From Parahaliea mediterranea (GTDB lineage: Bacteria > Pseudomonadota > Gammaproteobacteria > Pseudomonadales > Halieaceae), in contig NZ_JAFKCZ010000001.1 in assembly GCF_017255185.1 (NCBI RefSeq), forward strand, positions 124,001-188,000: 64,000 nt of DNA, given 5' to 3'. The position numbers were made by a program, and so were the translations under genes. Position 1 is the first letter of the stretch. Each line of letters starts with the position of its first letter. This document shows, one piece after another, positions 36,296-43,731 of this stretch. The notes below the pieces were generated by a model. It had not been told where the DNA came from. It saw only the letters and a program-made list of their open reading frames with translations, and did not search any database.

Positions 36296-36742
36296 TTAGA
36301 TATGAGTGGCTGGCTTGATGGCCAGTAAACTGGTTTCGAACCGCTCCCTGGCGGCTTTCACACTGGGGCTGTACTTGCCATTGCGCGGAGTGAGCTTTAT
36401 GTATTCACTCAGAATTAGCGCACAGCGCGCGGATTTATAGGAAAGCAGGTAAGGACCAATTTGCCGGATCAGCTGTAGGGCTTGCCGGTTGTAGACCGCA
36501 TAGGCAAAGCTGTCCTGATGATGGGCCTTGGAGCGGCGCTTATTGGTGATTTTGCCCACACCGGTGCGAGCCAGTACAAAGTCCAGCATGCCGCGTTCCG
36601 TACTGCTGATGGTCAGGGCCAGTTGGCGATTCTCGTTGCGGTGTTTACGGGTCAGGGTAATGGTGCCCTCGCCATCGACGAGGCCGGCGATGTAGGCAGC
36701 TTCGGTATCACTGAGCGTTTGCGCGCGTTTATAGGTCGTCAT
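36296..36742 (-). CDS. LAGLIDADG homing endonuclease, single-motif, downstream of ssrA
   Basis: A 148-residue protein with one LAGLIDADG motif (AYIAGLVDGEGTI, residues about 16-28), whose acidic residue ends the helix as in active-site Asp/Glu. The downstream Lys/Arg-rich region (ITNKRRSKAHHQ) and a second conserved block (LLSYKSARCALILSEYI) follow. One motif implies a homodimer. The ATG at 36742 has GGGAG 6 nt upstream. It starts 48 bp beyond the tmRNA CCA end, on the same strand, outside the group I intron that splits ssrA. Whether it cleaves the intronless T-loop is inference. Confidence 0.88.
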   Translation of the reverse strand: MTTYKRAQTLSDTEAAYIAGLVDGEGTITLTRKHRNENRQLALTISSTERGMLDFVLARTGVGKITNKRRSKAHHQDSFAYAVYNRQALQLIRQIGPYLLSYKSARCALILSEYIKLTPRNGKYSPSVKAARERFETSLLAIKPATHI

Positions 36743-36761
36743 CCTTGACTCCCTGGAGTCC

Positions 36762-36783
36762 GCTCCCGGCAGGCGCCGGGAGC
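36762..36783 (-). terminator. Hairpin between ssrA 3' end and the endonuclease gene
   Basis: GCTCCCGGC and GCCGGGAGC form a perfect 9-bp stem with a 4-nt loop, 8 nt after the tmRNA CCA end. No T-run follows, so it may be a 3' processing or stability element rather than an efficient terminator, and transcription could continue into the endonuclease gene. Confidence 0.55.
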
Positions 36784-36807
36784 GGGGGATTGGTGGAGGC
36801 GGCGGGA

Positions 36808-37062
36808 CAGCTGATCCATGCCTTTCGACATGGGCTGGACTATTCCTTCACCTGCGATGCTGCTGCAGGGGAGAGCGTATTGTGGGCGTTTGCCCACCCT
36901 AGTACTCCGTAGGGCTTGCCCTTAGGAGCCTATGAGTCTCTAGCCGGCTTACTGGTTTCCCATTCACCGGACGGCGTTGGCATAGGGCGGTGCCCCTTAG
37001 CGTTCACCGTATGAGCTCTCTTTTTCCGACAGGGATCACTCCCTGTGGCGACCATGGTGTTA
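36808..37062 (-). other. Group I intron inserted in the ssrA T-loop (about 255 nt)
   Basis: The insert begins TAACACC after a U (exon ...TTCGAT) and ends CAGCTG before exon 2, giving the U and terminal G demanded at group I splice sites. An internal guide GTCG can pair with exon CGAT (P1). The P7 elements are recognisable: TAGAGACTC (R-like, 36942-36934) and GGAATAGTCC (S-like, 36846-36837), with GACT/AGTC pairing. Other hairpins include CAGGGAGTGATCCCTG and CCATG...CATGG near the 3' end (P9-like). No protein is encoded inside it. Confidence 0.9.
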
Positions 37063-37303
37063 ATCGAACCCGCGTCCGCCAGTACTCTGCCATCGGCTCT
37101 ACATGCTTAGTTTCCGTCTATTGTTTTAGCCGCACACAGCCCGACGGGCAGGACGTGGTTGGCGATCCCTGTTAGTGTTTAGCAGCGCGGCCCAGGGCGT
37201 GCGTTACTGCGATCCAGTTCTGTATGACAGTCAATAGCGCGATACTGGCACCTTGCTAAAGACCGCTAGGGCCGAAGCCACTAGATGGTGCTTTCATCGC
37301 TGC

Positions 37304-37342
37304 TTACGCAGCCAGTTGGGCACCGTAGTTGTCGTCATTGGC
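37304..37342 (-). other. tmRNA proteolysis-tag reading frame
   Basis: GCC AAT GAC GAC AAC TAC GGT GCC CAA CTG GCT GCG TAA encodes ANDDNYGAQLAA, beginning at the GCC resume codon after the TAGTTGCC context. It is close to the E. coli tag ANDENYALAA but two residues longer; the LAA end is the ClpXP-type degron. Confidence 0.93.
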
Positions 37343-37447
37343 AACTATTTAGGTTACAGCTTTGGATTAACGTGATTCGCTGTCATCACGGCATGCACCT
37401 CAGGTTTCGTTACCGTCGTCGAATCCTAATCGCCCCCGTAGGTGGAC

Positions 37448-41772: not shown

Positions 41773-42255
41773 CTATTGCTTGACGTTGTCGCGGATGATG
41801 CGTTGTTTCTGCCGGCCCCAGTCGCGCTCTTTCTGGGTGTCGCGTTTGTCGTGCGTCTTCTTGCCGTGGGCGAGGGCGATGCGCGCCTTGACCAGGTGAC
41901 CTTTCCAGTAGAGCTGGGTGCACACGCAGGTCTGGCCCTTCTGCGTGGTGGCCGCCAGGATTTTGGCCAGCTCCTTTTTGTGCAGCAGCAGTTTGCGCGT
42001 GCGCGTGGGGTCCGCCACGAAATGGGTCGAGGCGGTTTCCAGCGGGGTGATCTGCGAACCCAGTAGCCAGGCCTCGCCGTTTTTCATCAGCACGTAGGAA
42101 TCGGTCAGCTGTGCCTTGCCGGCGCGCAGGCTCTTCACCTCCCAGCCAGCCAGGGCCACGCCGGCCTCGAAGGTCTCGAGCAGCTGGAAGTCGAAGCTCG
42201 CGCGTTTGTTGCGCGCGATCACGTTGTCGGGGTTTTTGGGTTTCTTGCTTGCCAT
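41773..42255 (-). CDS. smpB: SsrA-binding protein SmpB
   Basis: 160 residues, the tmRNA partner that delivers tmRNA to stalled ribosomes. Hallmarks: [35 protein letters not shown], the OB-fold core ([15 protein letters not shown]), and the C-terminal basic tail [11 protein letters not shown] that enters the mRNA channel. The ATG at 42255 is 7 nt after a TATAAT (42268-42263 minus), so the mRNA may be leaderless. Same strand as ssrA. Confidence 0.97.
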
Positions 42256-42262
42256 GGCGCGC

Positions 42263-42268
42263 ATTATA
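42263..42268 (-). promoter_or_regulatory. -10 box of smpB; predicts leaderless mRNA
   Basis: Perfect TATAAT on the minus strand ends 7 nt before the smpB ATG at 42255, placing +1 at about the A of the start codon. No convincing -35 hexamer is seen at 16-18 nt. No Shine-Dalgarno can fit in this arrangement. Confidence 0.45.
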
Positions 42269-42291
42269 CGGACCGGGAGCGCCGCGGGAAG

Positions 42292-43731
42292 GTGAATCTT
42301 TCCCTTTTCAAGCGCCGGTGGCTGGGGCAATCTGGTGGCCATGACAACCAGCTGTATCCTTTCGTGTTTGTGAGCGCTGCCGGGGCACCGGGGCAATGGC
42401 GTTCGCGTATGACCTTCGTTCTGGCACTGGCCGCCGCTGTCGTGGGGCTGGGAAACCTGTGGCGGTTTTCCTACCTCACCGGCGAGCATGGCGGCGGCGC
42501 CTTCGTGCTCCTGTACGTGCTGTGCCTGTTCCTGCTCGGGGTGCCGGTGTTGATCGCCGAGGTGGCCCTGGGCAGTTACGGGCGGGCCAGTCCGCTGATC
42601 GCGGTGCGCGAGGCCGCCGACCGCTCCCTGCGCAGCCGGGCCTGGATGTGCCTGGTGGCGCTGGCCAGCGGCGCGGCGCTGGCGGTACTGAGCTTGTATG
42701 CGGTGGTGGCGGGGTGGTCACTGGCCTTCGCCAACAATCTGCGTCGCGGTGAATTCGCCTCCGCCAGCGTGGTCGACGTGGCGGACTTTTTCGATGCCCT
42801 GCTGCTCGATTTGCCCGTGCAGGTGTACTGGCTGAGCGTGTTCCTGCTGGTCGCCATGGCGGTGGTGTGGGCCGGGGCGAGGCGCGGCCTGGGCACCCTG
42901 GCCTGGTTGGCGGTGCCGGTGTTGATCGCCTTGCTGGGGGTGCTGGTGCGTTTCGCGCTGGAGCACGGCGATCTGGCGGCGACGCGCGATTTCCTGTTTT
43001 CGGTACAGCTGCTGGATTTCAACTGGCAATCCCTGGGCGCGGCCATGGGGCACGCCTTCTACACCGTCGGCGCCGGCGCCGCGGTGGGCATTTGCTACGG
43101 GGCCTACGCCCCGGAGCGGATACCCATCGGCCGCGCGGTGATTGCGGTGGCCCTGTTCGACACCCTGGTGAGCATCGCCGTCGGGCTGGCGATATTTCCG
43201 GTGCTGTTTGCCCAGCACGTGGCGCCGGCGTCCGGGCCGGGGCTGATGTTTATCGCGGTGCCCTATGCCTTCGGCAACAGCGCCGCGGGGGAGTTGTTCG
43301 GGGCGCTGTTCTTCCTGATGGTGGTGGTGGCCGCCCTGGGTACGGCGGTGGCGCTACTGGAGGCGGTGGTGTCCTCGCTGGTGCAGTGGCTGGGCCTGCG
43401 CCGCTTCACCGCGGTGTTGCTGGCCGGGGCTGGCTGCTGGCTGCTGGCGTTGCTGGCGGTGGAGTCCCTGGGCACCACGTCGCCGGGGGCGGCCAATCTG
43501 CTGGTGCGGCTGGATCACTGGGCGGCGGGTGTGCTGCTGCCGCTGGCCGCGCTGCTGGGCTGTGTGTTCGTGGGTTGGCGGATGCGCAGCCCCCTGCTGC
43601 GCGCGCGACTGTACCGCGAGTCGGACGGATTTTTTTCGCTTTGGTATGCCCTGATACGGTATATTGCCCCGCCGGCAATTGTGCTGGTGCTGGCCGCGGC
43701 CCTGTGGTCGGACTGGAGCCGGCTGAACTAG
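42292..43731 (+). CDS. Neurotransmitter:sodium symporter (NSS/SNF) family transporter
   Basis: About 479 residues with roughly twelve helices. The NSS signature [35 protein letters not shown] at helix 1 (split site for Na+ and substrate) is clear, as are later [17 protein letters not shown] and [10 protein letters not shown]. Members take up amino acids with Na+. The start is uncertain: GTG at 42292 has an adjoining GGGAAGG, but GTG at 42370, nearer to the first helix, is also possible. It faces away from smpB and precedes ratA. Confidence 0.88.

Follow-up and report, generated by a model that had tools for sequence, protein, structure and literature searches.

A group I intron in the tmRNA T-loop of Parahaliea mediterranea and a predicted LAGLIDADG endonuclease gene that recurs beside intron-bearing tmRNA genes

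Introduction

The tmRNA gene of Parahaliea mediterranea is interrupted in its T-loop by 255 nt, and a small gene begins just past its end. What is the inserted sequence, and could the neighbouring gene have a part in its spread? We addressed both questions in the window, the whole stretch of 64,000 nucleotides analysed here (contig NZ_JAFKCZ010000001.1, positions 124,001 to 188,000), and in related loci from other genomes.

Group I introns in the tmRNA T-loop were catalogued in 2025, with 883 sequences from 21 phyla given in the main text of that survey (PMC11915505), and the initial annotation of this locus was right to treat them as a known phenomenon. Its reading of a T-loop group I intron also stood; it was incomplete in passing over the 2025 catalogue of the class and the LAGLIDADG gene next door. 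According to the main text of the survey, endonuclease genes were counted inside tmRNA introns only, where 36 of 883 (4.1%) had one, compared with 54% of the group I introns of archaeal rRNA, and the intronic endonuclease genes were placed in P7.1 or after P9 (PMC11915505). The words "downstream", "adjacent" and "neighbor" are absent from that main text. A Clostridium botulinum tmRNA intron is named, in the portion of PMC2729099 available to us, among those earlier shown to be self-splicing.

Results

The tmRNA gene is split in its T-loop

The Rfam tmRNA model (RF00023) matched the window at 37429-37061 on the minus strand (133.7 bits, E 4.3e-52), and the alignment broke off in the T-loop at TTCGATT. 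ARAGORN made no tmRNA call in the 64-kb window or in the unjoined gene. When the 255 nt were left out, it called a 392-nt tmRNA with the tag ANDDNYGAQLAA on the joined exons, which bears out the proposal that exon joining rebuilds the T-arm. A second, permuted ARAGORN reading of the joined piece was due to the circular search wrapping round the ends of a short piece. The gene occupies 37437-36791 on the minus strand, with a precursor of 647 nt. Its 5' exon (375 nt, 37063..37437) contains the tag reading frame at 37304-37342; the 255-nt intron (36808..37062) splits TTCGAT/T and ends with a G at 36808; and the 3' exon (36791..36807, TCCCGCCGCCTCCACCA) provides the remaining T-arm, the acceptor strand and CCA. 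The junction letters of the joined tmRNA are TTCGATTCCC. The split at TTCGAT/T, the gene limits at 36791 and 37437 and the lengths of 255 and 392 nt had all been given correctly by the initial annotation.

A permuted, two-piece tmRNA, the alternative that had been raised against this reading, was rejected: RF04321 scored 31.3 bits against a cut-off of 47, and the exons stand in the standard order. No other tmRNA match in the genome exceeds the cut-off. The three that fall below it were rejected as a second tmRNA, two being tRNA genes (L002, L003) and one an 18-base match (L004). The window also holds an open frame for the tmRNA partner SmpB (41773..42489, minus strand; domain at residues 91-233, PF01668 E 1.4e-54). 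With SmpB present and no other tmRNA above the cut-off, trans-translation in P. mediterranea should depend on splicing of the intron. In G019, a genome of the window's family, two identical tmRNA 3' ends lie on different contigs (C14:30439-30502 and C27:5527-5590) and represent either a duplicate gene or an assembly repeat.

The insert has a covarying group I core

The window's intron has a U before the splice site, a U.G pair there, a P1 in which GUCG faces CGAU, and a terminal G, as initially described. For comparison, 48 introns were hand-picked from 126 located loci, which include repeats of one genome, for spread over Pseudomonadota, Nitrospirota and Bacillota. The U.G pair at the splice site was found in 48/48 introns and CGAU/GUCG was invariant. 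The G as last intron base had served to locate the introns and is not independent evidence.

The secondary structure was drawn on the window's sequence. Fifty pairs in P1, P2, P3, P4, P5, P6, P6a, P7, P7.1, P7.2 and P9.0 were counted, and 15 of the 65 drawn pairs (the P5 extension, one P6a pair, P8 and the inner P9) were excluded after alignment slippage was seen there. For these 50 chosen pairs, 99.0% of 2391 cells pair across the 48 introns, and pairing fell to 34-41% when partners were slid by 1-3 columns. Changes on both sides were observed for 33 of the 50 pairs and in 516 cells, compared with shuffle means of 26.8 and 151.5 (0/500 shuffles as high). The weakest of five measures, further pair types, gave 83 against 78.3 and was matched by 19/500 shuffles.

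Among individual helices, every counted pair of P2, P6a, P7.1, P7.2 and P9.0 changes on both sides. P3, formed on the minus strand by GAGAGC (37015..37020) and GCTCTC (36871..36876), is paired in 99.0% of cells with both-side changes in 4/6 pairs over the 48 introns; P4 is paired in 99.7% of cells and P5 and P6 in 100%, with both-side changes in all three. The R- and S-like P7 strands that had been proposed do exist, as GACT (36935..36938) and AGTC (36838..36841) on the minus strand; P7 is paired in 48/48 introns and 100% of cells and never varies, and is thus uninformative by itself. The P7.1 (36905-36928) and P7.2 (36882-36897) hairpins together occupy 36882..36928 on the minus strand, between the P7 5' strand and the P3 3' strand, and all 10 of their counted pairs change on both sides. 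P7.1 and P7.2 point to subgroup IA for the window's intron.

The initial annotation had expected the Rfam Intron_gpI model to find a group I core. It did not: RF00028 gave zero matches at E <= 1, formally the outcome that the annotation had named as refuting its reading. RF00028 is one general model and does not define the class, and the comparative core of 48 introns therefore outweighs this miss. P10 was not identified in the structure drawn. Folding of the single intron gave a z-score of -2.66, which is supportive and not specific. Chance is excluded, since 48 aligned genes are interrupted at the identical base by inserts whose helices covary. On these comparisons we regard the insert firmly as a group I intron of a known class, in keeping with the original proposal, and it would be expected to splice in the cell. 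Compared with the introns described in the main text of PMC11915505, it interrupts the same gene at the principal T-loop site, which by our count falls between the sixth and seventh loop bases, is 255 nt long against a mean of 293, and has the same U before the site and terminal G. Longer tmRNA introns with the endonuclease gene still outside were seen in L033 (2448-2930, 453 nt) and L083 (3459-3918, 430 nt).

A predicted LAGLIDADG endonuclease is encoded outside the intron

The intron itself encodes no mobility enzyme. An extra-intronic gene for a 148-aa protein (36296..36742, minus strand) begins 48 nt past the tmRNA end. The protein matched PF14528 with 23.1 bits, just above the cut-off of 22.5; its PF00961 score was under the cut-off of that family. 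The AlphaFold model had a pLDDT of 94.1, and its best PDB folds were I-CreI, I-MsoI and I-CvuI (Foldseek E about 1e-7), which share this predicted fold at about 19-25% identity in structural alignments. These three enzymes are intron-encoded in organelle rRNA genes. The bI3 maturase was also among the PDB fold matches. A profile of 23 relatives matched I-MsoI, at 1.2e-16 for the fused two-copy chain (3fd2) and 1.9e-7 for the single chain (1m5x). The motif residues A19, G20, D23, G24, E25 and G26 are invariant in the 23 aligned members, and the 18 columns without variation include E25 and K103; by analogy, we take these two as putative catalytic residues. The protein is thus predicted to be a single-motif LAGLIDADG homing endonuclease of the I-CreI/I-MsoI kind.

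NCBIfam had no family for the five members checked. The PHROGs match was phrog_5046, whose HNH endonuclease label we regard as a misnaming, as motif and fold are those of LAGLIDADG proteins.

A strong hairpin lacking a T run (36761..36784, minus strand) lies between the tmRNA end and the endonuclease gene, where a terminator scan found no terminator-like site, and AAGG precedes the endonuclease ATG. These features make expression by read-through from the tmRNA transcript plausible. At the same place in L007, L008 and L009, hairpins are followed by T runs.

Relatives of the gene flank intron-bearing tmRNA genes in several phyla

A scan of one genome per species returned 114 relatives of the endonuclease, and status was assigned for the best 80 of the 114. 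Among these 80, 67 flank an intron-bearing tmRNA gene. The 27 that share its strand belong to Pseudomonadota and Nitrospirota; the 40 on the opposite strand comprise 39 labelled Bacillota plus L060, which is labelled Chryseobacterium yet groups with Bacillota. The Bacillota gene faces the tmRNA gene and must have its own promoter. The gap between gene and tmRNA was about 16-603 nt in 65 measured pairs; the other two of the 67 were L019, read separately, and L041, assigned via a second contig of its genome (L202). A flanking endonuclease gene is thus a real and recurrent feature.

The remaining copies were arranged in other ways. Three of the 80 lie inside the intron (L059, L081, L088), and three do not come within 3 kb of the intron-bearing tmRNA of their genome (L042, L044, L063). 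Six of the 80 adjoin an intronless tmRNA gene (L013, L014, L015, L026, L034, L036). L010 lies 404 nt from a contig start, and the intronless tmRNA of its genome ends 163 nt from another contig end. Frames shorter than 120 aa were found in 8/80 relatives, besides L041 at a contig edge.

Further sequences were noted near these loci. In three Bacillota genomes the tmRNA gene is followed by similar repeat-like sequence (GTGACTTGAACCAT or a variant of it; L204-L206, after the tmRNA end), and in two or three of them such sequence also lies near the displaced endonuclease gene (after 3380 in L042 and after 3380 in L044); a mobile element possibly parted gene and tmRNA. Downstream of the gene, L191 (about 590-620) and L015 (about 2830-2860) repeat part of the tmRNA T-arm and acceptor end, in the way that genomic islands leave them; these two genomes have the unusual T-loops TTCGAGA and TTCGAAA. 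No endonuclease match was obtained in a search of plasmids, which gave four weak DNA matches to part of the tmRNA.

Phage copies adjoin standard, intron-bearing and permuted tmRNA genes

Viral contigs yielded 120 loci, of which the best 80 were considered; the Rfam scan covered 30 of these, namely the top ten and 20 of the remaining 70. In nine of the ten best, the exception being L094, a tmRNA lies beside or around the gene (seven by Rfam, L097 and L098 by eye). In L097, L098 and L099 the gene lies antisense within a T-loop intron, and L092 and L093 resemble this type in the 5' part, the only part read. In phage contigs L090 and L096 the gene stands beside intronless T-loops (TTCGACT and TTCAATT), and L091 and L095 have permuted tmRNA genes. 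The Rfam scan of the other 20 viral loci gave no tmRNA match. On the strand of the phage tmRNA genes and upstream of them, Pistol ribozyme matches above the gathering score were seen in L097 (5142-5210), L098 (5106-5174) and L099 (4381-4448), all minus strand.

Among annotated phages, a relative labelled HNH endonuclease overlaps the annotated ssrA of Sphingobium phage Lacusarx, and an HNH-annotated relative in Gordonia phage WilliamBoone (L276 2489-2986) overlaps a tRNA-Ser gene in a tRNA cluster. The wider endonuclease family may target the T-arms of tRNA genes too.

Sampling from the intron side

Genomes were also searched with a DNA pattern of the 5' junction, irrespective of whether they carry the endonuclease gene. 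The intron proved patchy, occurring in 7 of 140 genomes of the window's family and in 11 of 369 genomes of a class sample. In the window's family the gene was found in 9 genomes and both elements in 5, with broken gene copies in G002, G159 and G160; 5/7 intron loci had a gene or fragment within 1.5 kb. In the class sample the pattern occurred in 13 genomes and a real 3' exon in 11, the window's own included. In ten of these 11 a gene or fragment lay no more than 1.5 kb away, always on the strand of the tmRNA.

The family of Bacillus sp. MRMR6 was represented by 193 genomes, with the intron in 102, a gene or fragment (E <= 1e-10) in 63 and both in 61. The two exceptions with the gene and no intron, G555 and G672, hold fragments only; in G672 the fragment lies beside an intronless tmRNA whose T-arm reads letter for letter like a spliced one. 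The intronless pattern was present in 89 other genomes of this family, with the T-loops TTCGACT, TTCGATT or TTCAACT; these two fragments were the only endonuclease sequences among them, and none had a full-length gene. At E <= 1e-10, 41 of the 102 genomes with the intron lacked the gene. When the first 30 intron loci were inspected, 19 had a gene or fragment no more than 1.5 kb away, in each case on the strand opposite the tmRNA, and 11 did not; among those 11, L230 shows only 390 nt, and the genomes of L252 and L255 carry the gene 7 and 25 kb away. Gene and intron are separated on one contig by about 7 kb in G596, 16 kb in G666, 25 kb in G607 and 54 kb in G161, and lie on different contigs in G696.

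Fisher's test for this association gave 4.7e-20, and 6e-6 in the window's family; both values overstate independence, the genomes being related. Much of the Bacillus-family association is shared ancestry. The more independent evidence is recurrence with differing strand and place across phyla.

Several rows were dropped before these counts: a weak match (G029, E 4.2e-4), chance pattern matches (G115, G000:C8, G165, G595, G654 and one row of G702), two genomes with no real 3' exon (G505, G436) and a second place in G326 (L227, 56 nt only). The T-loop TTCGARA occurs in all four gene-bearing intronless genomes of the window's family and in 1/71 others. We rejected it as a mark of resistance: the four are one genus, G073 has TTCGARA without the gene, and island remnants are found there.

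Selection and history of gene and intron

In 12/14 close pairs dN/dS was 0.052-0.249, the other two being saturated. Pairs that include the window's own gene have diverged too far for a dS estimate; pN/pS was 0.31-0.36 in four of them. The related gene copies are under purifying selection. On a tree of 71 proteins the five layout labels need 6 changes, compared with 29 in shuffles, which shows that layouts cluster by lineage with few switches.

In comparisons with the window, intron similarity exceeds that of the 5' exon by 9-20 points for L008, L011, L018, L020, L021, L022, L202 and L224 (the L224 comparison spans 116 nt only) and by 4-5 points for L007, L174, L175, L176 and L177; for L009 it falls slightly below the exon value. 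Slow change in a ribozyme core is another possible cause of the higher likeness of the intron. For Pseudomonadota and Nitrospirota (21), the endonuclease distance correlates with that of the tmRNA exon at r 0.61 and with that of the intron at 0.44, and the intron-exon correlation is 0.08 once the gene is held fixed. For Bacillota (37), the three sets of distances correlate with one another (r 0.77-0.80). The gene-intron partial correlations given the exon were 0.32, for Pseudomonadota and Nitrospirota, and 0.48, and the gene-exon values were also 0.55 and 0.36. As judged from sequence distances, the evidence on joint transfer is mixed.

Discussion

In the window and in 67 of 80 relatives, across several phyla and in both orientations, an endonuclease gene standing by itself is linked to a tmRNA gene whose intron has none; the intron core covaries, the protein has a predicted endonuclease fold, and related copies of the gene are under purifying selection. 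The best reading of this linkage, which we consider probable, is that the flanking endonuclease and the T-loop intron are a collaborative homing pair. The intron would be spliced out before the tmRNA is charged and bound to the ribosome. As a homodimer, the LAGLIDADG protein would act on the T-arm DNA of an intronless ssrA, which is nearly palindromic, and would cut both strands where the intron inserts. When the break is repaired from the donor, the flank would be copied too, and intron and endonuclease gene would travel together; the intron in the donor would split the recognition site and shield the donor. In its sequence, the T-arm DNA is an inverted repeat with the insertion point 2-3 bp off its centre, an arrangement that would suit a homodimer.

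Collaborative homing has been described for F-CphI and the psbA intron of cyanophage S-PM2 in the available texts of PMC6083498 and PMC3984707, the latter without mention of tmRNA. There too a free-standing endonuclease gene adjoins a gene with an endonuclease-less group I intron, and joint spread was proposed (PMC6083498). F-CphI, however, is a phage enzyme of the Endo VII type with demonstrated cleavage, while the present proteins are LAGLIDADG proteins known from sequence and encoded on bacterial chromosomes of several phyla. LAGLIDADG genes are associated with some of the introns in the main text of PMC11915505; there the gene is intronic, and here it is outside, past the tmRNA end. The available text of PMC4383926 mentions introns once and endonucleases never. 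In the open-access literature, searched by titles and abstract openings, we found no description of an endonuclease gene flanking tmRNA, and an earlier mention is possible. Within the literature searched, the T-loop intron belongs to a known class, and the flanking endonuclease arrangement is the newer part, which we did not find in print.

Several observations weigh against collaborative homing. The 41 of 102 Bacillus-family intron genomes without the gene indicate that the intron persists alone, as a homing cycle with decay also predicts. The gene can live beside an ssrA without an intron, as in the six bacterial loci, L010 and the two phage contigs described above. In Pseudomonadota and Nitrospirota, gene distances track the exon more than the intron, though a partial correlation of 0.32 with the intron remains. 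Shared ancestry accounts for much of the Bacillus-family association, and the intron structure as drawn lacks a P10.

A wider reading is that a dedicated LAGLIDADG family homes on tmRNA T-arms in many phyla and phages, at standard, intron-bearing and permuted genes and mostly from extragenic positions, with collaborative homing as the normal route for T-loop introns and phages as vectors. We hold the chances of this wider reading to be about even, because the distance test was mixed and some phage copies stand beside intronless tmRNA.

Those same intronless neighbours favour another explanation, in which a free-standing selfish endonuclease targets ssrA and the intron shares its site by chance and gains little. 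The permuted tmRNA genes of L091 and L095 and the relatives overlapping ssrA or a tRNA gene in Lacusarx and WilliamBoone fit it as well. It sits poorly with the relatives found within introns, and with the contrast between 0/89 intronless Bacillus-family genomes with a full-length gene and 61/102 intron-bearing ones with a gene or fragment. We consider it unlikely.

Because ssrA is a common integration site, the endonuclease might instead be cargo or a relic of a genomic island. The partial T-arm and acceptor-end copies downstream of the gene in L015 and L191, the TTCGAGA T-loop without the gene in G073, and the genomes in which the gene lies 7-54 kb from the intron or on another contig all point that way. 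The gap of about 16-603 nt in the measured pairs, however, is too short for an intervening island; orientation varies between phyla, and integration leaves the intron unexplained. Hitch-hiking on islands accordingly seems quite improbable.

LAGLIDADG proteins can turn maturase, as the bI3 maturase among the fold matches recalls, and purifying selection on the gene would also be expected if the protein were now a maturase or regulator aiding intron splicing and no longer a homing enzyme. Against such a role stand the 41 Bacillus-family intron genomes that lack the gene, the invariance in 23 members of E25 and K103, putatively catalytic by analogy, and an extra-intronic, opposite-strand location that is ill-suited to coupled folding, and we give it very little credence. 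Still harder to believe is a single ancient entry of intron and gene with the gene now functionless and the linkage merely inherited: broken copies are common (8/80 relatives, and G002, G159 and G160 in the window's family) and Bacillota distances run together, but dN/dS is low in 12/14 pairs, presence is patchy, and the gene occupies opposite-strand and inside-intron places in other phyla.

If collaborative homing operates at these loci, flanking endonuclease genes would explain the spread of tmRNA introns across the 21 phyla given in the main text of PMC11915505. If the dedicated-family reading is true, the reported rarity of endonucleases in tmRNA introns would follow from examining intron interiors only. 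Collaborative homing, represented by phage cases in those parts of the literature available to us, would become a recurrent arrangement on bacterial chromosomes. Many natural states coexist, among them intact and broken forms, introns without an endonuclease, endonucleases without an intron, and genes within the intron, some of them antisense, which would open the proposed origin of composite mobile introns to testing.
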